Positions 8,503 to 49,214 of a stretch of DNA of 64,000 bases are shown here, one piece after another. How positions within the stretch are numbered: position 1 is the stretch's first letter; the number at the start of each line of letters is the position of its first letter. Source of the DNA: Dissophora ornata. Lineage: Eukaryota > Mortierellomycota > Mortierellomycetes > Mortierellales > Mortierellaceae. The DNA is taken from NCBI GenBank assembly GCA_025201705.1, contig MU616599.1, positions 1 to 64,000 on the forward strand, in the 5' to 3' direction. The position numbers and the translations under genes were made by a program. The notes below the pieces were generated by a model. The model saw only the letters and a program-made list of their open reading frames with translations, ran no database searches and was not told the DNA's origin.

Positions 8503-9414
8503 ATGTCTGCATCCAGGAATATTCTCCTCCGAAACGTCCTCTCAGCCACGCCCGGAAAGGCCTTTGCCCGCCAGCAAGTCCCCGCTGTCGCACGCTATTT
8601 CTCGCTCTTCGCTAAGAACAATACGTTCAGAGGAGTTGTCAGCAGCAGGGATCAGAGGCAGGGCTTCGCAACCTCGTCGCCCTTTGCTGATTTCTCAAAG
8701 ACAGATGACCCACTCGACAAGGCTCAGCAGTACATGGATGAGGGCGTCTCTTTTCAGAGCAACAACATGCTGCCCCTGGCTATGAGTTCCTTCCAGAAGA
8801 GTATCAACGTGCGACCCACAGGTAATGGACTGGCAAAAACTCAGCGCCTTTGATTGCACTTCCAGCCGAGTTTGTTATTGATGACATATGTGTCTCTTTC
8901 TCACAAACAGCGGCTGCATATTACAACATGGGTGTGTGCTACTTCCAGCTGGGCGACTTTCAGTCATCGATCAATTCTTTTCAAGAATCGCTGAAGCTCT
9001 CACCTCATCACGCAGACGTCCACACTAACATTGCAAGCGCGCATATTAAGCTGAATGGAAACATGAAAGAGGCACAGAACCATCTGCAAGCTGCAGTCAA
9101 CATTGCGCCCCAGGATGCAGAAATTCAAGTAAGGAAACATCACATTTTGATACCTCTGTATCGCTTGGGCGACCAAGGCAATGTTATCGCGTTTTCGTCT
9201 ATTCATTCCACTCATTTTTTTTTGGTTGGTCTTCTAGTTCAATCTGGCTGTGATTAGCGAGCAGAATGGTGACCTTGATGGCGCTATCAATGCCTACCAG
9301 GCGGCAGTGGATCAGGGCCTGACGGATGCCTCAATGAACTTGAGGAATGTCAAGACTAAGAAGTTCGCAAAGATGGCCAGGGAGGCGGAATTCAACGATT
9401 CTAAGAGCGAGTAG
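8503..9414 (+). CDS. Mitochondrial TPR-repeat protein
   Basis: Exons 8503-8821, 8911-9128 and 9238-9414 give 237 residues. The N-terminus (MSASRNILLRNVLSATPGKAF and on to residue 45) is rich in Arg, Ser and Ala with no acidic residues, a typical matrix presequence, followed by the cleavage-like segment RQGFATSS. The rest is tandem tetratricopeptide helices, for example AYYNMGVCYFQLGDFQSSIN, HADVHTNIASAHIKLN and FNLAVISEQNGDLDGAIN, so the protein probably mediates protein-protein contacts in mitochondria. A longer start at ATG 8467 is in frame and would add 12 residues (MLLAFAFGHSSN). I prefer 8503 because it gives the cleaner presequence. I cannot name an orthologue. It converges with the protease gene, stop codons 99 bases apart. 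Confidence 0.85.
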
Positions 9415-9513
9415 ACCACTGAATATATGTATTGAAGTATTGTACAAAGCAATTGGTGTGCCTAGAAAGAAAGAAGTGCTACGTGTGTAAACTTGTTGGA
9501 AAGCAGAGTCGCC

Positions 9514-11674
9514 TTAATCTGTTCCCTCTAGGTCTAGCCTCTGCCAGATCCTGTCAAAGAGAATGGACATTCGCTCAAACATGTCTGGTGTCAACTCTAG
9601 AGTCTCTCCGGGGTGACGAGAACCATGCCTAGAGACGGGCACTTCCTCCTTGGGCACGAAATATGGCTTTTCTAGACTAGGGAAGCCTAGTGGTCCAACC
9701 AATTCCTCCACCGGAGCTCTTTCTCTATTGTCCCCCTGTTGCTCTCTGGTTTCGCGCCTCGCAACCTCAAGGCTATAACCATCCATGAATTTTGTGCCGG
9801 AGCCCTCGGGGTCCAGATAAGTCGCTAGACGATTCTTGATTTTTGGAGGCGTCGTGAATGACGCGTGGATTGCCCCGTAGACGTCATATCCATTGGTGTT
9901 CCAGCAGCTAGCAGATCCTCCGTGCAACTGACCAACGATCCTTTTGTCAGCATCAAACAACGGGGATCCGCTCGAACCTGGCTCGGTTGTACCCCGGTCC
10001 CAGCGAGGAATCTGCCAATGATAGAATTCATGGAGTTCACATTCGTTCCAGCAAGTTTTAGGAAGGGTACCGTTGTAAAAAAACGAAATCTTTTTCGAAT
10101 CTCCAGAGGGGTGGTGAATGCCAACGATAGGAATACGACTCGTAGAGGGATCCTCTGGTTCAGGATCAGTGGAGGGATCGTCTGTGTGACCCATGGGGCT
10201 CTTATGACTACTGCGAGAATTCCTCCAATGACTTGAGGGACCCTGCTCCGTCTCTCGTGGTCGACTGGAAGGCGCTTTGGGCAAGGCAGACCAGCCAGAA
10301 AGGTAGAGATTGTAGGCATCTGGGATGGGCTCAACGATCTCATAGAGTGTGAAGTCACTTGGGGCATAATTTGCGAGCTTTACTAAGCCCATGGCTGTGT
10401 CGTGTTCATTCACGACCTCGGAGTTGGGCCCACACTGGATCTTTTCATGATTAAACATGACGACATGCGCACTCGTATCAGCAAAACCTGCGCAATGGTT
10501 GGCCTGAATGGAGTTTTTGAACGAACACGGGAGGAGGATGTGAGTTACTTGATGACATGTCTGCAGCGAAAGGAAAAAACGAAATACCAAGGGTACGTAC
10601 CGTCAAGAACAGTTGCCGGCCGTCTTGCCGTGCATTATTAACCATAGCACCTGAGCAATATTTCTGGTTGTAGTCTGTAAGGATCACGCCAACACTTCGG
10701 CTCTGGTCCTGATATTCGTACTGGTGGCAGGCGACATCTACGTTGCATTTGCCGGACATGGCTCGGACTGGAGGCATCTCGTCATCGCCTTCAACATTCC
10801 ATGCTCCCAGGATGTTTGCGCTGGATTGGTCCTTGAAGCCAGTTCGTGTTTTGCGCCTAGGTACGATGGATCCATCCTGTCGACGACTGCCCTTCGCAGT
10901 CAAGTCCGACGACGAGGCGAGAAGCGTGGGCTTGTACCCGTGCACAACATGACTTAATTGGATTCTTGGGATCATACCTCGTTGCAGGGCATTTCTCGTA
11001 GTGTAGTACTCCAACAGGATTCGGTCCCCAGCAATGGGAGCTGTTGCAAAGACTCCATCGGGCTTGTTGTTGATTTCGGCAGTAAAGGCACCCAGGATGT
11101 GCCGCTTGCCAGAAACGTAGAATTCAGCGCCGGGAACGAGGTACAAATCGGAAAAGATCAGATTCAGCGACAGCGCAGACTTTGAGTGGATCTCAAGCTG
11201 CCAAACCAGTACATCCTCCTCATCTTCTCGGGGGTCCATGAAGCGCTGGTGTCGCAAAGACTTGGATGGGATCCAGCGGCCCTTTGAGAATGTAGATTCA
11301 TTGTCGAAAGATCCGACAGAAATCGCCTTGCCAAATTGATATGCACCGTCAGGTTCTTGGCCTTGTTCGACTAGCTGCCTACGAGACATCTCTTCCTCAT
11401 TCAGAAGCTGAGCGTTGTCAAGATGTGGGAGTCGTAGTGTAGGAGGAGGCCCCTGCATCTTGTTGCTATCTACGAATCCATCGTATTCGGCGCCAGTGTG
11501 ATGGTCGAGAGTGTGAAGAGGAATATCTCGGTAGAGGGATCCTGCAAAGTTGGCGGGGAACCTTCCTGGGACAGAAACTTGAGCGCTAACAAGGCTCGAG
11601 TGCCCTGGGCCGCTGTTTTTTGATGCCAGCAAGAAGAGCGCTGTAGAAAGGAGGAGCACGGAGGGGAGACGCAT
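9514..11674 (-). CDS. Secreted trypsin-fold serine protease, lysyl-endopeptidase type
   Basis: Two exons (11674-10601 and 10503-9514) give 687 residues, with a signal peptide at 1-31 ending near SLVSA. Residues about 150-270 form a pro-domain of the kind seen before bacterial lysyl endopeptidases and ArgC-like proteases (WQLEIHSKSALSLNL, LGAFTAEINN, PIAGDRILLEYY). The S1 domain follows: the catalytic His sits in LTANHC, built exactly at the splice junction (residue about 361), Asp in SDFTLYEI (about 408) and Ser in TTEPGSSGSPLFD (about 536). Several Cys residues fit disulphides. A disordered insertion of about 45 residues separates the Asp and Ser regions, and a tail of about 90 residues follows the domain. 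The longer open frame starts with GTG, so I used ATG 11674. Cleavage after Lys or Arg is inferred from the family. Acquisition from bacteria is possible but untested. Confidence 0.9.
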
Positions 11675-12544
11675 TACTAAGAGGCTGTGAGTGAGAGAGG
11701 AGAGAGGATGTGGCACCAAAGTATATCAATGAAAAGAAGGGGAAGGTGCGGAGCAGAAAGTTATGGACGGTACTTCTCTTTTATGTAAATCAAAGGTATC
11801 AAAGGCTACATACTGCTTATACAGACAAAATGTAACGAGGTTGTGTGATACTCTTTTGACAGCTCTTTACTGCACCTGCCGCTCCTCCCTCCTCCCTCCA
11901 AAGTGACGCACCACTAGTTTTGTCGCAATAGAACTCTGATGAGGATGGAGGGCAGGGAGTGGTGTACTTATCCATGTTTTCGCAATTCCCTTTCTTTTTG
12001 GCGGGGAAAGCAGGACAGGGGAGGGCAACCTTAAGCTACTACAATTGATCATTTGCAGGGATGACCAGGCCAGGCGACCTCGATCTTATTTCTGCCTCGT
12101 GCCAAATTGGCACTCATAGTTCTGTGTGAAGAGGCAACCATGTGCACGGCCGTTTATCAACACTCCCTCCTTTTCTCCTCCTTAGGATCACGGATGAGGG
12201 GGACACACGACTTATCTATGATTCTCTCACATACTGCTGTTTCGCTCTTTCTGTATTCTGACATTCCGCTCACCCTGTTGTCACACCCCTCGCTTTTTTT
12301 GATCCCTTGACACCCAGCAGATCTTGGCGATTGCACAGTTCCACTTGGGCATTGCGACATGCGAAGCTGCATTTATTAAAATCTAAAATTGTCTATCGTA
12401 TCGTATGCTTGAGTGATATCACCGAGACATGTGGATAGGGTTCATCGGCGCAATGATAGAGTGATGAAAGACGGGTATAGTCGAATGCGCGCAAAATTTG
12501 TGAAAAAAATAATAAAAAGAACGGCTGCCTTTCTTCACGCCATC
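11675..12544. other. Intergenic region upstream of the protease gene
   Basis: It holds the promoter of the minus-strand protease gene and the 3' flank of the Prm10-like gene. I see pyrimidine-rich stretches but no convincing gene or RNA element. Confidence 0.5.
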
Positions 12545-15350
12545 CTAGAAAGTCATCTGCGCTGAACGAGCCTTGCCCATTGGGTAAACCACCAGTGCCG
12601 AAGCAAAGAGTCCGACGCTGATGGCAATCGCAGTAACGACCATCTGCAATGCAAAGTTCACGCCTCCCGCCATGTCGTCCGTGAACCAGGCCATTGCGCC
12701 CTTGAGACCCATACTGCCCGGTACCAAAAAGAAAACCGCGCAGATTACTGCCTGGAATGTCAACTGGTGGGTCATGCGCTGGTAGATATTCCCACAGAAG
12801 CCGATCGCAAACGATGCCAAGGCAGATGACACCTCGGTCTTGGCACCACCCCATGTTGCCGTCGCGTACGAAATTACATAGCCGAGGACTGAAAGGACCA
12901 TGGCCAGAGGCCACTGGCGCGGATGGGCCTTCAGGGAGATATTGAGTGTGATGGCGAACGCGGGTACAAAGAGAATATTCCATTTGGCATCGAGTGACTC
13001 TGGGCAGAGTTCTGTCACCGCCGCTGGAGTACTCGAAGGGTCGATCAGGTTCCAGAGTGAGGCACCAATAGTCAGACCATATCCAAGAAGCAGTGAGAAG
13101 ATGACAGCATAGAACAGACGGACCGATCCCGAAATCATGTGTCGGGAGCTGAGTTCCATGACTGAGCAAGTGATCGTGTATCCAGGAAGCAACATGACGA
13201 TTCCCGCCATTTTAACTGAGCTCCTGCACACCTGGTTGTGAAGTGCCTCAGCTACAAAGGCTACCACAACAGACATGGTAACCTCGCAAATATGGGCGTA
13301 GCTTGGCACCTTCTCCGACAGCCAACTCATCAAACCCACTGTGCCTCCGATCAGAAATGAAAATCCAGCATCGACCCAGTTGCCTTTGAAGAACATAGGT
13401 GCAGTGCAGGACGATGCCACGGCGTAGCCTAGGATGTTAGCCCATCGCGGCCATAGATCTTTTTCCGCGTTGATCGCGTCCAGTTTCATGATGGCCTCTT
13501 CCACAGGCATGGATGAGTGTGTGACCATTTTCAGAATCTGGTGGACCTGCGCAAATCTGAACATGTCCAGTCCGGCAGAGACCTTGAGCAAGTGAGTCTC
13601 TGAGGTATGCGTCTCGTAGTCCGTGAAGGCGATAACCATCACGTTGGGCATGTAGATGCACTGCAGGTTGAGCTCCAATGTCCTCGCCGTATGATCGATG
13701 GCGTCCTCCAGTCGATGCGAGGGCGCACCGAACTTGATCATGGCTCGCGCCAGTCGAAGTACATAATCCTGGCGCTGCAGTATGTCTGCGACCGCAAAGG
13801 TGATGCGCATTTTTTCTTCAGCCGAAAGCGAGTGTAGGGTCGATGAACCAGACATATCGTACGAGAACGATTCTCGCGGTGAGCCATTGGGCGACTGCAT
13901 GGGCGACGGACCCTGAGAGAAGGTGCCAGCAAAACCGCCATCAAGCTGGAACGAGTGTGCGTGGGTGGCGTTGCCGTTGCCGTTGCCATTGCGCTGCGTG
14001 ACTGTGCTGACATTGCCCAAGCCTGTGGCTATTCCCTGCGCGTCGGTGGTATTTGGCAGAGGTGGGTATGTCCCAAAGACGGATTTCGTGGAGAAGGATG
14101 TTACAGAGTTGTTGGCAGAGCGGCTGTAGAGTGTTGGGCGTTTCTTTTTGTCCTTGTGTTTTGGTGGCGTATGTGAATGGTTGGTCTATCGGTTTTGGAG
14201 TGACGTGGAATGGTGATCAGCGACCTGATCCAGAGACTGAAACAATTGAAATCAGACCGACAACCACGAAATCATTATTTACCTTCGGGGCACGAACGTT
14301 GCCCTGCAGCTTCAGCAAGTTACTGAGGACACCGGTTTTGGATGGCTGAATAACGGGGCGGTCGGTCGGGTCCATCTTTTTGTGCTGCTCGGGTACGGCT
14401 GTCGCTGTTGGATCTCGGTTGAAGAAATTCGAGAGTCGATTGTGCGACCGCCGCTTGTCCTTGGGGGTCTTTTCCTTCGGTGTCTCCTGTTCCTCCAGGG
14501 TGACGGCTGAGCCGACGATCCCGTGGCTCAATGCCGTCTTTTCGGGGTCCTGGCGATTGGCGAGGACTGTGGGCGTGAGCATGATGCCATCCTTGTTCCC
14601 GGCTGAGACTGTTCCAGGCACCGAGGTCGACTTTTTACTCTTCATCATGATCGGTCCTTCAGCCTCGTCGTCATAGTTCTCTATCACTTCCCTGCCTTCC
14701 TGTTTAATCAAGTTGCTGAGCGCCCTTTGTAGTGTCATGACATGATCCTCAGTTGAATTGGAACCACCGGGGGTCGTAACTGTGATCTCTGGCTCCTCAA
14801 CAGCCAGCTGGTCGGCAGAGTATGATCTTCTAGGTTGGGCGCCAGATGGGACATTGACAGAGATGTTTAGCCGCTGCAAGTTTGCAGATGAGTTCGACGC
14901 AGATCCGGTCGAGTAGAAACGGTGCTGAGATCGCTGCAAGGCAGCATTCAAGTAGTAATCCCGCAAGCCGTTGGGCGGAGTCCCTGGGGGAGAGCTTGAT
15001 GCGCTGCTGGTACCGAGACGACGTCCGCCATGGTTGCCTAAGTTTCCGTGGTAGATGCTGTTGTTGCTGGAATAAGTCCCGCTCATCCTGCTTGGCACAG
15101 GTGGATTATATCTATTACTTGGCCATGGTGAGCTTGGAACCGAGGTTGAGGACAAGCTTCGGTTGTTGCGGTCTGCATTGTTGTGGTTACTGAGGGTAGC
15201 GGGAGAGGGCGACGAGGGGGGGTTGATGGCGATTGTCGGTGGGGCTAGATTGGAGTTGTGAGCGGGGACACCGAGCGAGTTTGAGGGAGTGGTTGAGGAG
15301 GGCTGGGGACGGTGGGGAGGAGTGGTGTTGGGCGAACTGCTGCTGCTCAT
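12545..15350 (-). CDS. PRM10: Prm10/ThrE-family membrane transporter (DUF1212)
   Basis: Fungal member of the ThrE-like family of threonine/serine exporters, called Prm10 in yeast, with about ten membrane segments. Exon 15350-14283 encodes about 356 mostly disordered Ser/Pro/Asn-rich residues ending LSNLLKLQGNVRAPK, a linker common in fungal members. The large 3' exon carries the conserved domain, starting near EEKMRITFAVADILQRQDYVLRLARAM (written here in part), then KFGAPSHRLE, repeated small-residue helices and a C-terminus VVYPMGKARSAQMTF. The splice between them is not settled. The simplest in-phase choice starts the second exon at 14035 (852 residues in total). A scheme using an extra exon near 14238-14207 and an acceptor near 14138 would also keep the frame. 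ATG 15350 is the first ATG in frame. Confidence 0.88.
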
Positions 15351-16953: not shown

Positions 16954-19398
16954 ATGTCCAGTAAGTTCTCGCATAGTCGTGTATATCGCACACTTCTCTC
17001 TTTCATATTTCACTGATCCCGCCTCCCGATAAAAGTCCGCGGACATCCCGGCACTTCTAGCCGACAGAAAGACACACTGAAAGACCATCCGACAGACAGA
17101 TAGACAGACATGCTTGCAGGAGGGCAGGAGGGCAGGGGGGGTGGCCAAGTAGGCAGGCGAGCAGGCAGCTTCATAGCCCTGCCTGGACTTGTGGTATCAA
17201 GCAGCCGGCAATTTGTTTCCGCCGATGGCAAAATTTATTTAATTTAATTTTGTTTTAGGACAGTACCCCTGATCCTTGACCGAATGCTTGACCCCTGATC
17301 TTTATTCCACTCGTATCGCTACACATGTTCCCTCTCTTTCTCTTACACACGCACCTTCGCCCCGATTCCTCACTACCGTCTCGCCATGACACTGTGGGGT
17401 ATTTTTTAAACAAACCTAAACATTTGTTTGCACCATCCGAATCCAATAGACGACTGGCGACGACAAAAGGTCGAGGACCACAAATTCGATTTCATCGATG
17501 TCGATGACTTTGTCGACAACTCTATCTGGAGAAAGTTCAAGTACTCCCTTGTGTTTGCGATTGTCATCAAGGGCATCCTGATTTACTGTGCCGATTTATG
17601 GTGAGATTGCGTCGCATTATCATGGTCACTGTGCGTTGATCTTCGCAATACCATCAATACGTGTTCTCACCCATGTCAACAGGACGGCAGTCAATTTACT
17701 TCTCTCTAGAACTTGGCAGACCAATCTTGTAGGACAGGATAGCCAGATCTCCTTTCGTAAGTACACGCGTACACGCGACAGTGCCAATTAAACGTGTGCC
17801 ACAGTGTTACACCAAGCTGACCATATCCCATACACCATCTCACCATCTTCTATTATGAAATCACAGAGGATATTAGTATCTCGTTTGAGATTTACAAGTG
17901 GATCTTTGCTGCGTGCATCATCCTATCGTTTGTCCTTCTGGCATGGGACATGAAAAAGGCAGCGGCGATCATCAAGAGTCGCGATATCAGTTATGCGTTC
18001 ACAAGCATGATTGCTTTCCGATACTACGCCATCAAAAGTTACGCACATTTCTGTCTCTTTCAAAAGATCCACAATTCCAAAAAGACCATCGATGAAGTCG
18101 CATTTTTCTGCTTCTTCACTTTCCGAGGTACGCAACACAGCAACTCTCTAATCAACTAAATCCCGTCAACATTGCACTCGAAAGCTTGCTCTACTGACAC
18201 CTTGCAATGCGTCAATCAATTATGGATATAGGCTGGAAACGTCTCCTGTTTGCAGATGGCCCGAGGCAGGTTATCAATAGCATTATTCTAATTACGGTCA
18301 TCAACAAGAACAGGAACGGAGGCAAACTCAACCTCGAGTTCTGGTCCTATCCTTTCCCCGTAATGACGCGCGTCACTATGGGACTGATGACCTTCACGCT
18401 CACGCTGTGGGTCATCTCGGTTCTGCTTATGCTTGTGGCAGTCATTCTCTACATTCCGTTGGTGATCCATATTCAAGGCAACCTGAAAGAGTTCTGCTGC
18501 CACAAGATTGACAAACGGTGAGTAGACCGTCCAAGATACTGTGTCTCTGCACCAAATCGCCTCGGCACTTTTGACTGACCTGGCTTATGTTTCCACACAT
18601 AGCATCGACGAAATTGTAAAGCGGAAGGCAAAGCAGCGCGCTCAAGAAGCCGTCAAAAATGCAAAGAGCGGCAAGGGTGGAGAGACGCCACTTCAGAAAC
18701 CGACTCTGCCCAATATTGGACTGATTGAGGAGGGAGGAAGAGGATCTCCCATGCTTTCTTCAACACCCCGGATGGCTGCGGCACAGTCACCATACATGGC
18801 TGCAGCACAGTCGCCATACATGGCCGCAGGGTCTCCGGCTTTGCGGAAGAACATGCCACCCGCTAATGATCCCTATCGCCGTCAGAATCCTCCGCCACCA
18901 CCCAGATCCTACTCGCCCGGCCCAAGATCATATACCCCGACTTTTGATGATGACAATGACACCAAGCCGCTCCGTCAAGACAATTATCAGCAAGCATACC
19001 ACAATAGAAATATTCAGCGGCAGGATCAACGCTTCGACTATGCTGATGATAGGAGCGAGATCAGCGATGGTGCGTATAGCCACAACGGTAGCCACTTGGC
19101 ATCGCAGTACCCTCCAAGACCACAACTTCCCGGACATCGGAGGCAGCCTTCTGACACCAGCACAGTGCTAAGCGGGTCCAATCAAGGAAGTGTCGTGAGT
19201 GGTCATGCTCCACGTGCGGTAAGACCCCATCCTCTACAGCAAGGACATCGTCCCAATTACGGCGAGACCGTTATGATGTCTGATCTCGGACAACGCGGTA
19301 CACCTAACCCTTATAGCGGCTACCAGGGAGCTCCCTCTGGAGGCGGCGCTGTTGGAGGGAATGCTACCAGTGGTCCGGGCTATCGTCCATACTATTAG
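16954..19398 (+). CDS. KCH1: Kch1/Prm6-family potassium transporter
   Basis: Plasma-membrane protein related to yeast Kch1 and Prm6, which mediate low-affinity potassium influx needed for calcium signalling during the pheromone response. Six exons (16954-16960, 17450-17600, 17683-17756, 17867-18127, 18232-18517, 18603-19398) give 524 residues. The first exon is only seven bases (ATG TCC A). The membrane domain has WRKFKYSLVFAIVIKGILIY, IYKWIFAACIILSFVLLAW, the family-typical IIKSRDISYAFTS and GWKRLLFADGPRQVINS, and a final pair of hydrophobic segments before IDKRIDEIVKRKAKQ. The last 250 residues are a disordered Pro/Tyr/Gln-rich cytosolic tail with short repeats (AAAQSPYM). All junctions keep phase. 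Specific ion selectivity is inferred from the family. Confidence 0.92.
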
Positions 19399-19982
19399 AA
19401 CTGCCGTCAGATGAATAAAGCCGAAACACTTGGGCACAATTAGAGTGTGGGATGTGATGTGTTTGTGTCAATTTGTTCGTGATCATAGCTTACATAGGAA
19501 TGTGCTGAATAGAATCTGGCCTTCGAGAAAAGGCACACAAGATAATCTTGAGCTCCGAAGGATGAAGAAGAGTTTCTCTTTCCCCTTAGGCATCAAGAGA
19601 GGGAAGGTAGAAAAAGAGGAATATCCATCAGTTACCAAATTCCAAAGCGGCCCATCCCCTGTCTCCACTGCGACACTCGAGACCTCTTTTTGGCTGCCTC
19701 ATTCCTTTATTATTCTTCCCTTGACTGAAAACAGGCCATTGGTGTAGATTTGCATACCTCTCACTATTTGCTGTAGACACCAAAAACGCGGATGGAAGGG
19801 GGGCACGAGCATACCTTCCCCCACAAAGTTGGCCGAGGATATTTAAGAACAAGGGCTTTTGCACCACTACCCGCTCTTCCACTTCTCTGCTTCTGTATCC
19901 TTCTGCCTTTGACAGCACTCCCCTTTCCCAATACTGAACACGACAACAAACACATCTTCGAGTCTCCGACTGGGATCCCATT
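19399..19982. other. Promoter region of the repeat peptide precursor
   Basis: Contains the 3' flank of the potassium transporter gene, then a TATA-like box at 19839-19847 and a pyrimidine-rich leader ahead of the ATG at 19983. No gene is seen. Confidence 0.55.
19839..19847 (+). promoter_or_regulatory. TATA-like box of the repeat peptide precursor
   Basis: ATATTTAAG sits 136 bases before the ATG, with a CT-rich stretch between. A TATA box fits a strongly or conditionally expressed secreted product. The assignment rests on position and consensus only. Confidence 0.5.
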
Positions 19983-21086
19983 ATGCGCTTCATTCTCTCT
20001 GCACTCCTGGCGACTGCCCTCATGGGCACCATGGCTACTGCTGACGCTCGTCAAGGACAACAGGCTGCCTTCCGCCTTGAGCGTCGCCACAACCACCAAC
20101 AACACAACCACCACAACCAGGTAGATCGCAGTCACCACCGCAAGAGCTCATCGAGGAGGCAGCGTCGTGATTTGCAAGAAGATTCCGTCGCACCCGCTGT
20201 ACCGGCCACGTACGCCGCAGCATTCGGCTCCAACGCTCGTTTCGAATCAGCCAATGGTGCCAATGCTGAGACTGGGAGGACTGCCGCCAACCTTGGACTC
20301 CATAAAAAGAAGGCCAGCAATCATCACAAGAAGGCGAACCATAGCCATCACAAGAATAGCAAGCGTGCCCTTGAACTTCACCGTAAGAAGGCCAACCACT
20401 CTCACCATAAGAAGTCCTCTTCTTGTAACAAGAACACTAAGCGTGACCTTGAGGGTCTGGAGCTCCATCGCAAGAAGGCCAACCACTCTCACCACAAAAA
20501 GTCCTCCAGCAACAAGAATAACAAGCGCAACCTTGAGGGTCTGGAGCTCCATCGCAAGAAGGCGAACCACTCTCAACACAAGAAGTCGTCTTCTCGTAAC
20601 AAGAATAATAAGCGCGACTTTGAGGGTCTAGAGCTCCATCGCAAGAAGGCCAACCACTCTCAACACAAGAAGTCGTCTTCTCGTAACAAGAATAATAAGC
20701 GCGACCTTGAGGGTCTAGAGCTCCATCGCAAGAAGGCCAACCACTCTCAACACAAGAAGTCGTCTTCTCGTAACAAGAATAATAAGCGTGACCTTGAGGG
20801 TCTGGAGTTCCACAGCAAGAAGGCCCACGGCAAGGACCACTCTCATCACAAGAACCACGTCGACCATAGTCACCACCAGAAGATTCAGAAACGTGATGTC
20901 GCCAAAGAGTATGCTTTCCACCAGAAGATCAGCCGTAACCGCAAGACCAAAGTTCTGGGCCACAACAAGAAGAACAAGCGCGACCTTTTCAGGACCCAGG
21001 ATATCAAGAATGGGAAGTCAGCAAGCAAGCAGCACAAGGTCTCACGAAAGGGCAAGAAGACCCAACGCAAGCAACTCAAGGACTGA
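19983..21086 (+). CDS. Secreted Lys-Arg-punctuated repeat peptide precursor (KEP-like)
   Basis: Intronless gene for 367 residues. Residues 1-22 are a clear signal peptide (MRFILSALLATALMGTMATADA). After a His/Arg-rich propeptide and a short Ala-rich spacer, the protein becomes a series of units each ended by Lys-Arg, the Kex2 site. Units begin at residues about 129, 155, 183, 212, 241, 270, 305 and 334. Units 2 to 5 share the core LEGLELHRKKANHS followed by a Lys/Ser/Asn-rich run, 28-29 residues per unit. Later units diverge but keep the KR-Asp junction. Each core holds one NHS glycosylation sequon. Kex2 and then a carboxypeptidase would release very basic, His-rich peptides. This layout matches fungal pheromone and KEP precursors. 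Signalling, metal-binding or antimicrobial roles are all possible and untested. Confidence 0.9.
   Translation: MRFILSALLATALMGTMATADARQGQQAAFRLERRHNHQQHNHHNQVDRSHHRKSSSRRQRRDLQEDSVAPAVPATYAAAFGSNARFESANGANAETGRTAANLGLHKKKASNHHKKANHSHHKNSKRALELHRKKANHSHHKKSSSCNKNTKRDLEGLELHRKKANHSHHKKSSSNKNNKRNLEGLELHRKKANHSQHKKSSSRNKNNKRDFEGLELHRKKANHSQHKKSSSRNKNNKRDLEGLELHRKKANHSQHKKSSSRNKNNKRDLEGLEFHSKKAHGKDHSHHKNHVDHSHHQKIQKRDVAKEYAFHQKISRNRKTKVLGHNKKNKRDLFRTQDIKNGKSASKQHKVSRKGKKTQRKQLKD
20367..20789 (+). repeat. Tandem coding repeat, 87-base units
   Basis: Three near-identical 87-base copies (20529-20615, 20616-20702, 20703-20789) follow two shorter relatives (20367-20444, 20445-20528) inside the peptide precursor gene. 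The high DNA identity between the last copies, including at third positions, points to recent duplication or gene conversion. Copy number may vary between strains. Confidence 0.93.
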
Positions 21087-21280
21087 AGAAAAGAACAAGA
21101 AATAGTTGCTTTGTCATTTGTGGCTATGTTGCTATCGCTCCCTCCTCAAGAGACCAGATACCCCCACACGCTTCTTTCTCTTGAGAAGGGATGTATAAAT
21201 TCACATAAAGTACGCGCTGTTGTAAATAAAGATTGAAGAAAGGACAACCGTGCTTTTATTTCCCAAGCTTGAAATGCTAG

Positions 21281-21738
21281 AAAGCTGGCCAGAAGACGGT
21301 CCTCCAAAGCGATCTGAAGAAGGTGGCACTCTCCCTCAAGGACGCCATTGATAGCATGGCCAGGCAGGGAGTTGATATTGCCATGTTGAAAGTCTTTGGG
21401 ATAGTGGCGGTCGGTAAGCAAAGGGAATGTTATATGTACTGACAAATTGTTGTGACATTGGTGATGTCTAAAACTCTTGTTACTCTTGGTTTTGCTTAGG
21501 AGTGGAAGGAGTACTTTACTCCATGCAACTGGTGGGCATGGGTATATACCTGATGAAATACTATGCTGCGGTGCATGCCCTACGATCCCAGTTTCACCTC
21601 TGTGTGGTAGCAGGGGCCATCAATACCTTTCTGAACTTGCGGGAGGAGTTGATCCCAACAATGGAGGTCTGTCGAAAATCCCGTCTAGACAAACCCGCAG
21701 ACCTGACACGACCAACCTTTGGAATCCCGTCAAAGTGA
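21281..21738 (+). pseudogene. 5'-truncated gene fragment with an intact intron
   Basis: Exons 21281-21413 and 21500-21738 join in phase (GTAAGC...TTAG intron) to a protein-like frame of 123 residues. It includes KKVALSLKDAIDSMARQG, LYSMQLVGMGIYLMKYYAAV and LRSQFHLCVVAGAINTFLNL, and ends TRPTFGIPSK. The frame opens at a consensus acceptor (GCTAG) with no matching upstream exon, because the 3' end of the peptide precursor gene and its AATAAA at about 21223 lie immediately before it. The first in-frame ATG is at 21356 and would leave a protein of only 98 residues. I read it as the 3' end of a larger gene whose front is missing, but a short functional gene from 21356 is possible. The family is not recognised with certainty. 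Confidence 0.55.
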
Positions 21739-22088
21739 ACCAGACAAGCATTAAGAAGGACTTTCCAGCCTCTCCTGGCCTTTGCCAACAACCAAGTAAT
21801 AGAATATCCAAGGAGAGTCGCTGGAGTAACTACCATTGTCTTATTGCAATTGTAAAGTTGACGATAATTACATGAATATCGTTCACAACTGGGAAAGGGC
21901 GTCTACTTCTCTTTGTAAATGTCGCCAGTCAGGCCGACCGACAAGTTTTCACTTGGAAAACCATATTCAATAAAGATTAAAATCCATTGCCACCAACTCA
22001 GGTGGCCAAGCCACAGTTTGTCGATTTTATATTCCTTCTGGAGCTGCGACACTGAACGCTCTCTCTTCTAAAGTCTAGTCTATTAAAA
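21739..22088. other. Promoter of RPL14
   Basis: A short region ahead of the ribosomal protein gene. The last 60 bases are pyrimidine-rich, as is usual for ribosomal protein leaders. No other element is recognised. Confidence 0.5.
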
Positions 22089-23710
22089 ATGACTGTATGT
22101 GACAGCACTCTGTAATACGAGCACCCTGGAATCTAACATCCACCCATCGGCAACCCCATCCATCGATCGATCTATCGTCGCTATTGAGCATCCCGACTTC
22201 ACCGGTCAATCGCCATCTGGGCACTAGGACCTTGGAGCCACCCGCACTCTGGAAGATCTCTCGCCAGAATCATGAGACTGTAGTGAGGTGTCAAACAGCA
22301 ATTGAGGCGTTCGCACACACGCACCAAGTCGATCCCACTCGCATGCAACGGATTGCTATGCGGCGGCCATACATGGGCAGGAGGGAGCATCTAATGGCGC
22401 GATAGCCTAGCAACCAGAGTCAGGAGGAACCTTTCATCTAATGATGAACTATGCGACCCCGACTTGAAAAGAACCCCGCCCCCCTCCCCGGATCACTCTC
22501 AGCTAGGAAACTAATAATTCATCAACATGGCCATCATCAATCTCAACCAGCAATTACCAACATCCCTCTCACAAAGTGGGTCAGCAGGATAATAGGAAAT
22601 CAGGGTGCAGTGGCTCTAACGAACCTCGATTTTCTTCTGTTCTGGACGCCACCTTTAATAGCGCACTCCTACCTTCCAGCGTGTCGTTGAGATCGGCCGT
22701 GTTGTCATGATCAACTATGGCCCCGATGCCGGCAAGCTCGCTGTCATTGTCGATATCATTGACCACAACCGCGTACGTTATCAAGTCTTATTTCGTATTT
22801 TTGAACTCGCCTTTGCAGGAACAGAGCGGGCGATAGAGTAGCATTGGACAGTCAGTAGACGATGGCATTTGCAGGAGCGAGCTGGGGTGCAACAGACAAC
22901 CCCCAGCTACCAATATGGTCGGGAGAGATGATCTCACTGATTGCTCCACAGCTGAATTCGTAACTCGATGGCACAGGCACAACATGTGCACTGAAACGCA
23001 GGATGGCTGGCCACAGATTACTGATCGGTTATTCCAGTTGATTCTGGACGAATGTTCTGTCTCGCGATCTCGTACGAGCAATCTCTGTGGCAGGAATGCT
23101 GGCAGTGACAAACATCGAATCAGGCATTGGCAGGCATCGGTCAAACGGAGAACCCCATGCAAACTGTGGACTGATTTTCACGCCTGCTGATACTATCATC
23201 CGTGGAAAAGCGCATCGGAGAAGTGCGATTTTGTGAGAGGAAAACAATCAAAAAAAAAGACGAGCGAGCAGCAGTTTTAACACTCATCACTTTTGGAACG
23301 GTTTTATCGTCTTCTAGGCTCTCGTCGAGGGCCCCACCACCGGTATTGCCCGTGCTGCCTATGCCTTCCGTCGCTTGACCTTGACCCCCTTGGTTGTCAA
23401 GGTTCCCCGCAACGCTGGCCAGACCGTCCTCAAGGCTGCCATTGAGAAGCAGGATCTCGCTGGTTCCTGGGCCAAGACCTCCTGGGCCAAGAAGATCGCT
23501 TCCCGTGCTCAGCGTGCTGCCAACACTGACTTTGACCGCTTCAAGCTCCAGAAGTACAAGAAGCTTGTAAGTAGAGACGCTTTTTAAAAGCTAATGGACT
23601 GTGGCGCTTCTGGATATGTAATAAAATAGAAGCTAACAACAAACCGCCTTACTGCAACCTTATAGCGTCGCGAGATCGTCAACAAGGCTGTCAAGGCCAC
23701 CAAGGCTTAA
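22089..23710 (+). CDS. RPL14: 60S ribosomal protein eL14
   Basis: Component of the large ribosomal subunit. Four exons (22089-22094, 22680-22772, 23318-23566, 23666-23710) give 130 residues, close to the yeast protein. Recognisable segments are [31 protein letters not shown] then [19 protein letters not shown], and [20 protein letters not shown] followed by [13 protein letters not shown]. The first exon is only six bases (ATG ACT) before GTATGT. I chose it because it follows a pyrimidine-rich leader and keeps phase, but it is the least certain exon. Introns 1 and 2 are long (585 and 545 bases) for this locus. Such introns often carry snoRNAs, but I could not identify a convincing box C/D pair. 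Confidence 0.93.
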
Positions 23711-47744: not shown

Positions 47745-49214
47745 TTACATGGGGGTCGTATCGTTGTCGGGAACAGGGACCTTCAAAGAAGTTGTAGACT
47801 CCTCCGTCATAAGTTGCGGATTCCTCTTTTGCGTATGTGCGCTTTGCTGAGAGGATGTGCTTGCCATACTCTGTCGATGTTCGGGCCGCAGCTCGGTCTT
47901 GTGAGCATCACTTTCTGCATCGACATATGTCGAACGAGCAGTAGGATCCGTTTCCGAGGCTCTTCTTGTGGCCATGGAAGAGAATCCTGCCCTGGTTGAA
48001 TCTGCCTGCTCTGGCTCCTCCATACCAATGTCAGGATTCGGTGCCATTGGCGTTGTTACCGATGGTACAGGCGCCATAGGTCCACTTTGTGACATGTAGA
48101 GATGCTGCTGCCGCATTGCCTCCTCATCCACGTAGCTTTGCTCAGGGTAATACATCCCCGAGCTCCCAGGATTATAGTATGAGGCAGCTGCGCGCATATC
48201 TCTCTCGTGCTGTTGTAGCTGCTGTTGATACAGCTGCTCCTGGTAGTATGCGGCCTCTTCATTGCCGTACTGACCATAACCACCGCTATAGACTCCATAG
48301 GCTGCTTCTGAAGGGTTAACGTAATTGACTCCGTCAACGCCAGCTGTATAAGTGCCGGAATGCAAGTACTGTGGGTCGACTTCGCATGGGTACAACGTGT
48401 CTTGATGATTTAAACCACCACTCGAAGCCGCTGAGAAGCCACTGGCACCCATCATAGCTGCGTTTAAGGGCTCGGCAGAGCCGCGTTCACTCAATGCACT
48501 GACTACTCCAGCACTGCTAGAGCCACCTCCATGGTCCATAGAGGGCGAGGAAGGTTGAATATCACTACGAGGGTGCTGGTGGCGGTTTTCCTGCATATCC
48601 AGGTTCACAGGGTTGAACATCGTGTTGCTTGTGCGATCGAGGTGGCGGCGATGGCGGCGCTTGATCAGAAAGGCGGCAACAAGGGCTGCGATGAAGACTA
48701 CGACCGCTGCGATGACGATACCAGCTATAGCACCCCCCGAGAGCCCTGACGACGTTTCTTCGGAGGGAGGCAAGGTTGGGGAGATGATAGGATTGGCACT
48801 AGAGGTGGGTGTGATCATTGGCTGGGACCCGGACGAAGTTGATGTGGTGGGTGGGGTGACAGTGTGTGTTGATGTAGTGGTTGAAGGCAGAGAAGTCGTG
48901 GCGTGCGTTGATGTAGTTGTTGGAGGCAGAGAAGTCGTGGTGTGGGACTCGGTTGTAGTTGTGGAAGGCTCGGTTGCGGCTGTGGAGGGCTCGGTCGTAG
49001 TTGTGGTGTGCGGCGGTGGGTTTGTGGTTGTAGGGTTCTCACTCGTATTTGGGGGGGTAGTCGTCATAGCAGTAGTTGGGTACGGTTCTGTTGGAGTTGC
49101 CATGGTTGTTGGCGAGGGTGCCGCCGTGGCCACGATGGTTACAGGGTCTTTTGACGTCATAGGAATGTTGGAGGTGACGTGCGTTGCGGCTGGAATGGAA
49201 GGCGTCGTTTCCAT
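47745..49214 (-). CDS. Mucin-like single-pass membrane protein, N-terminus unresolved
   Basis: At least 489 residues from ATG 49214. The outer part is almost wholly Thr/Ser/Pro in short repeats (TTTSLPPTTTSTH, TTTTEPS), so it is heavily O-glycosylated if secreted. A glycine-primed membrane helix follows (SGGAIAGIVIAAVVVFIAAL), then a basic stop-transfer KRRHRRH and a 260-residue cytosolic tail with Tyr/Gln-rich and Ser/Thr-rich parts. This plan resembles fungal cell-wall stress sensors and mucins, but no WSC domain is present. The same frame stays open upstream to about 49540, still Thr/Ala-rich, without an ATG. A start at 49683 (MKPNCSFLFSFLFLSLILL, signal-peptide-like) is in another frame, and I found no convincing intron to join it. 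The true 5' end is therefore missing from this call. Confidence 0.75.
   Translation of the reverse strand: METTPSIPAATHVTSNIPMTSKDPVTIVATAAPSPTTMATPTEPYPTTAMTTTPPNTSENPTTTNPPPHTTTTTEPSTAATEPSTTTTESHTTTSLPPTTTSTHATTSLPSTTTSTHTVTPPTTSTSSGSQPMITPTSSANPIISPTLPPSEETSSGLSGGAIAGIVIAAVVVFIAALVAAFLIKRRHRRHLDRTSNTMFNPVNLDMQENRHQHPRSDIQPSSPSMDHGGGSSSAGVVSALSERGSAEPLNAAMMGASGFSAASSGGLNHQDTLYPCEVDPQYLHSGTYTAGVDGVNYVNPSEAAYGVYSGGYGQYGNEEAAYYQEQLYQQQLQQHERDMRAAASYYNPGSSGMYYPEQSYVDEEAMRQQHLYMSQSGPMAPVPSVTTPMAPNPDIGMEEPEQADSTRAGFSSMATRRASETDPTARSTYVDAESDAHKTELRPEHRQSMASTSSQQSAHTQKRNPQLMTEESTTSLKVPVPDNDTTPM

Follow-up and report, generated by a model that had tools for sequence, protein, structure and literature searches.

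A candidate Kex2-processed repeat precursor with two unit types in the Mortierellaceae

The described proteins closest in layout to the one analyzed here are the fungal KEPs, and the literature on them and on related precursors is cited below for the sections considered. Two surveys define these proteins by a signal peptide, predicted in both with SignalP, and by at least three repeats between dibasic sites (PMC6339444, PMC7329392); the sites used by Umemura also include KK and RK (PMC7329392). KEPs with several motif types form a minority (79 out of 1193, two with three types and 77 with two; PMC6339444). Rep1 (repellent) of Ustilago maydis and MiSSP8 are likewise secreted, repetitive precursors that are cut by Kex2 (PMC7329392). 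For the expected products, the basidiomycete Coprinopsis cinerea may serve as a model, by description only: its KEP peptides, detected by mass spectrometry, are linear and minimally modified, and its kep knockouts had no detectable phenotype (PMC9769878). The word 'Mortierella' (or 'Mortierell') is absent from the main texts of both surveys (PMC6339444, PMC7329392), whose supplementary tables lay outside the scope. Among the papers listed on the Mortierellaceae, which are widespread in soil and some of which have endobacteria or effects on plants, titles and abstract starts disclosed no secreted peptide family from these fungi. The statement in an earlier, sequence-only reading of this DNA that no such peptide has been described is not contradicted by these sources.

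The window, i.e. the whole stretch of DNA that was analyzed, comprises the first 64,000 nucleotides of contig MU616599.1 of Dissophora ornata. On its plus strand, positions 19983-21086 hold an intronless ORF of 367 codons plus stop (ATG to TGA), preceded by a TATA-like element (TATTTAAG; 19840-19847, plus strand) and followed by AATAAA (21225-21230, plus strand), both found by eye. The ORF is the sole match to itself in its own genome (31.4 Mb, 968 contigs) and thus single copy, and it was also the only match when distant relatives from M. alpina and Podila were used as queries. TRF reported an 87-bp tandem array at 20385-20825, within the ORF. A Pfam search with the precursor (E up to 10) yielded no domain, a PDB sequence search (E up to 1) no solved structure, and NCBIfam no match for the precursor or its relative P0001 and sub-cut-off matches only for P0017; over 17 aligned relatives, Pfam matches were limited to three weak DUF hits, with 2, 1 and 1 members and a best E of 0.0012. 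The AlphaFold2 model, with only 17 aligned sequences behind it, predicts the mature part to be mostly disordered (mean pLDDT 49.7), and pLDDT is below 50 at 220 of the 367 residues. The sole helix predicted beyond the signal region (residues 297-321, pLDDT about 52-58) overlaps the beta unit described below and also spans the KR at 303-304.

Basically, the precursor has a pre-pro-repeat organization. Residues 1-21 (MRFILSALLATALMGTMATAD; 19983-20045, end approximate) probably constitute a signal peptide, as judged by hydropathy: the best 12-residue Kyte-Doolittle mean is 2.36, no stretch beyond about residue 23 exceeds 1.17, and an M[RK][FL] start is found in 29 of 35 proteins (the window precursor and 28 relatives), all with a best 12-residue mean of at least 2.11. 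Alignments delimit a His-rich pro-region (residues 22-62; 20046-20168) with a GQQxxFRLE motif, which ends at an RR before DL; R61 and R62 each reach 90% conservation or more in the aligned sets, making this a near-invariant RR-DL site. A variable linker (residues 63-128; 20169-20366) then runs up to the first KR. Eight KR sites follow, which delimit seven bounded units and a C-terminal tail of 26, 28, 29, 29, 29, 35, 29 and 34 residues, respectively. Units 1 to 6, at residues 129-304, are of one type, here called alpha, and are characterized by LxLHRKK or the variant LEFHSKK. They comprise unit 1 (ALELHRKKANHSHHKKSSSCNKNTKR; 20367-20444), unit 2 (28 aa; 20445-20528), units 3, 4 and 5 (29 aa each; 20529-20615, 20616-20702 and 20703-20789) and a divergent unit 6 (35 aa; 20790-20894). 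Unit 7 (DVAKEYAFHQKISRNRKTKVLGHNKKNKR; 20895-20981) represents a separate type (YAFHQKISRNRKTKVLG), here called beta. The tail (20982-21083) carries a TQDIK motif that is conserved in the alignment; all these features lie on the plus strand.

These data refine the sequence-only reading, in which the ORF, the KR sites and the shared core had been recognized correctly. The core LEGLELHRKKANHS is indeed common to four units, and a fifth has ALELHRKKANHS. The eight KR-delimited units proposed there correspond to eight KR sites with seven bounded units and a tail, and the second peptide type at 20895-20981 had been missed. The assignment of one NHS sequon to each unit does not hold, as NHS is present in five of the eight segments and lacking in unit 6, with a sixth copy located 5' of the first KR. 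Nor is every unit very rich in His: the five NHS segments contain 3-4 His, unit 6 contains 9 and the last two segments contain 2 and 1. NHS is missing in 20 of the 34 relatives listed, including a Mortierella sp. GBAus27b protein with eight alpha cores, and was consequently ruled out as a conserved family feature. Units 1 to 5 carry a net charge of +5 to +7, with their 3-4 His in 26-29 residues. The beta unit contains one Tyr; the 19 other first beta cores listed all have Leu at this position. Alpha unit 1 (20367-20444) has a Cys after a run of SSS, the only Cys in the array of the window precursor; a Cys occurs at the matching place in 14 of the 42 units having a residue there, across many relatives, and could possibly allow the formation of disulfide dimers.

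A comparison with the KEPs shows the same signal-like N-terminus followed by at least three KR-bounded repeats (PMC6339444, PMC7329392), six alpha units between KR sites being counted by inspection. The repeats, of 26-35 aa, extend over residues 129-304 out of 367, to be compared with the minimal coverage of 15% set by Le Marquer and the maximal repeat length of 100 aa set by Umemura. KK and RK also occur inside the units. A Kex2 protease in the genome is a supporting, not strictly required, property of KEP producers, and the D. ornata genome holds two kexin genes, side by side on the same strand (G000:C442, about 9000-13300). Both encode S8 and P domains, and in each a hydrophobic stretch is seen by eye downstream of the P domain. 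S10 carboxypeptidase matches were found on three contigs, a Kex1 identity being putative. The layout of a Kex2 precursor, as opposed to any function, that the sequence-only reading had put forward is thus supported by the conservation of the KR sites in most relatives and by these two kexin genes. A UstY gene, which lies nearby in 22% of Umemura's set, was not found here, a further point of agreement with the KEPs (PMC7329392). There are differences as well. The precursor has two unit types, unlike most KEPs, and the amplified type varies between relatives. The table in Umemura's section 6, which names no Mortierella, does not contain a KEP type corresponding to the precursor (PMC7329392). Compared by description only, the peptides of Rep1 act at the hyphal surface and are water-repellent, whereas the units of the window precursor are basic and hydrophilic.

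The number of KR dipeptides as such is ordinary for a protein of this composition: the precursor has 8, against a shuffle mean of 5.7, and 3916 of 20000 shuffles reach 8. Since shuffles of the same composition attain this count so often, it was dropped as evidence for processing. What stands out is the context, the successive KR sites being followed by AL, DL, NL, DF, DL, DL, DV and DL. When a KR is required to be followed by [DEAGSNQ] and then [LIVMF], the precursor has 8 sites against 0.31 expected, a number reached in none of the 20000 shuffles, and a set of 31 proteins has 79 against 5.5 expected. The control dibasics in the same context occur as expected (RK 5 versus 5.5, KK 10 versus 10.0, in the 31 proteins). 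Over all contexts RK and KK exceed expectation (141 versus 87 and 240 versus 163, respectively). The context was chosen after inspection of the sequences. In four relatives obtained afterwards, which served as a check, it occurs 4, 4, 4 and 2 times, where shuffles average 0.40, 0.20, 0.14 and 0.07. For the set of 31 proteins, as for the segment counts given below, the first 21 residues were trimmed from every protein, also from partial records. Given that the relatives share ancestry and the units are tandem copies, the shuffle figures do not represent independent events. At P1' and P2', sites cleaved by Kex2 have been found to prefer residues that are acidic or small and to disfavour basic ones (PMC2515848). 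Over 35 proteins, P1' is D, E, A, V or L at 95 of 142 KR, 100 of 272 KK and 17 of 164 RK sites; as KK exceeds its shuffles here too, P1' alone does not single out KR.

The spacing of the sites points in the same direction. Between one core and the next, exactly one KR without a K or R directly after it is present in 49 of 52 segments, against 24% in shuffles, the exceptions being one Dissophora segment without KR and two segments of P0007 with two. Three segments longer than 60 residues, kept outside the 52, have two, three and one KR, which brings the total to 50 of 55. Loss of the Lys-Arg pairs with retention of the rest, which the sequence-only reading had named as an outcome that would speak against it, is therefore mostly not seen: most relatives keep the KR sites while the intervening sequence drifts. 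Six beta copies of M. alpina, distributed over three proteins, have a KR inside the core. At the nucleotide level, differences between five alpha units of the window precursor are mostly synonymous, with a pN/pS of 0.116 pooled over ten non-independent pairs. For this purpose the first five units of 24-30 aa were selected by KR ends and length, which leaves alpha unit 6 (35 aa) and beta aside. As judged from these codon differences, the alpha units are under purifying selection.

Three protein searches (16, 28 and 21 rows among the matches listed) recovered at least 34 distinct relatives. All 33 that carry names belong to Mortierellaceae genera according to the NCBI taxonomy (Mortierella, Dissophora, Entomortierella, Gamsiella, Linnemannia, Podila, Modicella, Lunasporangiospora and Haplosporangium); the remaining one is P0005. 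Unit counts, read directly from the sequences, differ considerably. At least three KR-bounded units of one type are present in 10 of the 34 relatives listed (P0001, P0002, P0003, P0005, P0008, P0017, P0018, P0019, P0031 and P0032), and nine others, none of them labelled partial, have fewer than three of either type (P0004, P0006, P0007, P0009-P0012, P0016 and P0030). Partial records account for 8 of the 34, and the partial Podila entries with units are P0020, P0021, P0022, P0029 and P0034. Seven Podila proteins (P0013-P0015 and P0025-P0028) have kept the N-terminus and show no alpha or beta units; this array-less group is divergent and retains the signal region and the QQxxFRLERR motif. In a set of 51 pattern-selected units, which includes one beta unit (P0001_9) and a few units clipped by the end of the record, identity is 0.59 within proteins and 0.38 between proteins, as would be expected if the arrays were renewed in each lineage.

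The precursor carries two unit types, alpha (LxLHRKK) and beta (ELAFHRKISRNRKxxxLG), and which of the two is amplified depends on the lineage. Alpha is amplified and a single beta kept in the window species, Mortierella sp. GBAus27b, Entomortierella beljakovae and Lunasporangiospora. The array of M. alpina consists of beta: P0017 and P0018 hold four copies each (one of those in P0018 is divergent), P0019 holds three and the partial P0024 two; the alpha core was looked for in these four proteins and not found. By reading, beta-like copies are also present in P0006 (two), P0010 (two) and P0031 (three). The alpha tails change fast and are basic and rich in His and Ser. The beta 18-mer has a pairwise identity of 0.79 (15 proteins) and the QQxxFRLE motif one of 0.74 (13 proteins), both inflated because the search patterns fix several residues; for comparison, identity is 0.71 in the signal region and 0.45 over the whole alignment. 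Two records named Dissophora globulifera differ in this respect, P0002 having an alpha array and P0031 three beta units, and they may represent two paralogues, two strains or a naming problem.

The genomic surroundings of the precursor are conserved as well. Upstream lies the 3' part of a gene for KCH, a fungal potassium channel (18207-19398, plus strand), recognized by a PF16944 match within 18207-18518 (E 2.2e-22) and by the similarity of 18943-19356 to the N-terminal part of the fused model P0010; we infer that the two upstream ORFs belong to one KCH gene. Downstream are the exons of RPL14, encoding ribosomal protein L14e (22662-23707, plus strand; PF01929, E 4.5e-24), so that the order KCH - precursor - RPL14 spans 18207-23707. 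The same order is found within public protein models: P0010 (Mortierella polycephala) joins the KCH tail, the precursor and RPL14 in one model, and in P0008 (Linnemannia zychae) as well as in P0014 and P0015 (Podila minutissima) the precursor continues into RPL14. All four match the RPL14 region at 22662-23707 and map to the window in the same order and on the same strand, the precursor part of P0014 and P0015 being array-less and matching over the first 35 residues only. They are most simply understood as merged models of adjoining genes, and as public models fuse into neighbours in this way, the 'KOW domain' labels that precursor proteins carry probably arose as artefacts of annotation. The M. 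alpina copy presumably occupies the KCH-RPL14 locus too.

Considering the layout together with the context and spacing of the KR sites, the precursor is most likely a Kex2-processed repeat protein that represents a new family within a known class, and its processing is likely. More explicitly, we consider it probable that the product of the gene is secreted and is cut by kexin into linear, basic peptides. The signal peptide would route the protein into the secretory pathway, a kexin in the Golgi would cut after the conserved RR (residue 62) and after every KR, and a Kex1-like carboxypeptidase would trim the basic ends, giving six alpha peptides of 24-33 residues, one beta peptide and the tail. 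Several observations speak against this reading: the seven array-less Podila proteins, the nine relatives with fewer than three units of either type, the KR inside beta cores of M. alpina, the segments with no KR or more than one, the overall excess of RK and KK, the P1' residues after KK, and the weakly predicted helix across a KR. Beta would be the sequence-constrained product, probably acting on a specific target. The copy number of alpha varies freely between species, which makes dose-dependent agents more likely than sequence-specific hormones; the alpha peptides might work by charge and metal binding on the wall, on microbes or on metals. We use this combination, beta as a ligand and alpha as a dose-dependent charge or metal agent, as a working model of which the functional half is what we infer.

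The main alternative is that the protein is secreted and remains uncut, a polycationic, His-rich repeat protein that is lodged in the anionic matrix of the wall or serves to bind metal, KR-DL being simply a piece of the repeat. K, R and H together make up 37% of the precursor residues, the number of repeats differs between species, and the seven Podila relatives keep the His-rich, signal-bearing part without any units, all of which would suit such a protein. Yet it would need neither the conservation of KR at the unit ends in that specific order, as opposed to RK and KK, nor a similar context after the RR site of the pro-region, and we regard it as unlikely. That there is no gene at all, or that the array is a chance run of low complexity, might be suspected from the K/H/S composition and the lack of a Pfam domain; considering the at least 34 relatives, the conserved gene order and the purifying selection between units, this idea deserves practically no credence, and it was rejected as already refuted by conservation.

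Processing by kexin would leave the nature of the products to be weighed. Histatins are salivary peptides of primates and do not derive from a KR-bounded array; compared by description, they are short, His-rich and cationic like the alpha units, a likeness that is functional only. As a functional sub-case of the processed precursor, the alpha units could accordingly be histatin-like antimicrobial or metal-binding peptides for competition in soil. Their charge and His content (units 1 to 5) fit this proposal, and so does the fast change of their tails, as reflected in the within- and between-protein identities given above. To our knowledge, an acidic start such as the DLEGLE of alpha is atypical for cationic antimicrobial peptides; this start and the lack of a solved-structure match in the PDB search weigh against the proposal, and we consider the predicted activity possible and somewhat doubtful. 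The activity of the His-rich histatins has been linked to the binding of Cu and Zn (PMC12787115, PMC7559477), which would favour it. A mating pheromone precursor of the alpha-factor kind is suggested by the gross layout, as ascomycete alpha-factor precursors share the pre-pro-repeat organization with KR. The precursor nevertheless lacks an XA or XP dipeptide of the Ste13 type directly after its KR sites, its basic units exceed the length of 9-24 residues given for alpha pheromones (PMC6339444), and no STE2 or STE3 match was found in its own genome, the latter a weak argument given that the control genomes gave none either. On balance, a pheromone seems very improbable. Still less credible is a dikaritin-type RiPP precursor, with cores cyclised by UstY enzymes: ustiloxin precursors do have the KEP layout (PMC7329392), but the alpha units contain no Tyr, and UstYa (PF11807) had no match in the D. 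ornata genome, which again weighs little since the control genomes gave none.

Returning to the kexin-processed precursor, the comparisons of sequence give a well-supported case for a new KEP-like family in the Mortierellaceae, with one candidate peptide that is conserved and another that is freely repeated. In a more far-reaching version, the Mortierellaceae would share an ancient two-peptide locus between KCH and RPL14, in which beta is a hormone-like ligand held constant by a receptor or another specific target and alpha a fast-evolving companion, and in which the lineage-specific switch of the multi-copy peptide adjusts, like a dial, the ratio in which the two signals are dosed; we put this forward tentatively, as an idea that is rather unlikely to hold in full. 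The conserved cut sites and one nearly unchanged peptide hint at a peptide, as yet undescribed, for signalling or defence. With its single copy and an 18-residue peptide that hardly varies, the gene would make a directly testable candidate for such a molecule in an early-diverging fungal lineage, and the relatives offer a natural series of how a repeat precursor shifts which peptide gets amplified.

Elsewhere in the window, the minus strand holds an ORF of 489 aa (47745-49214), which by eye resembles a fungal wall-stress sensor in its architecture: a Ser/Thr/Pro-rich N-terminal part leads into one hydrophobic stretch, and the part after that has a basic start. Tandem repeats are present at 48864-49006, within this ORF.
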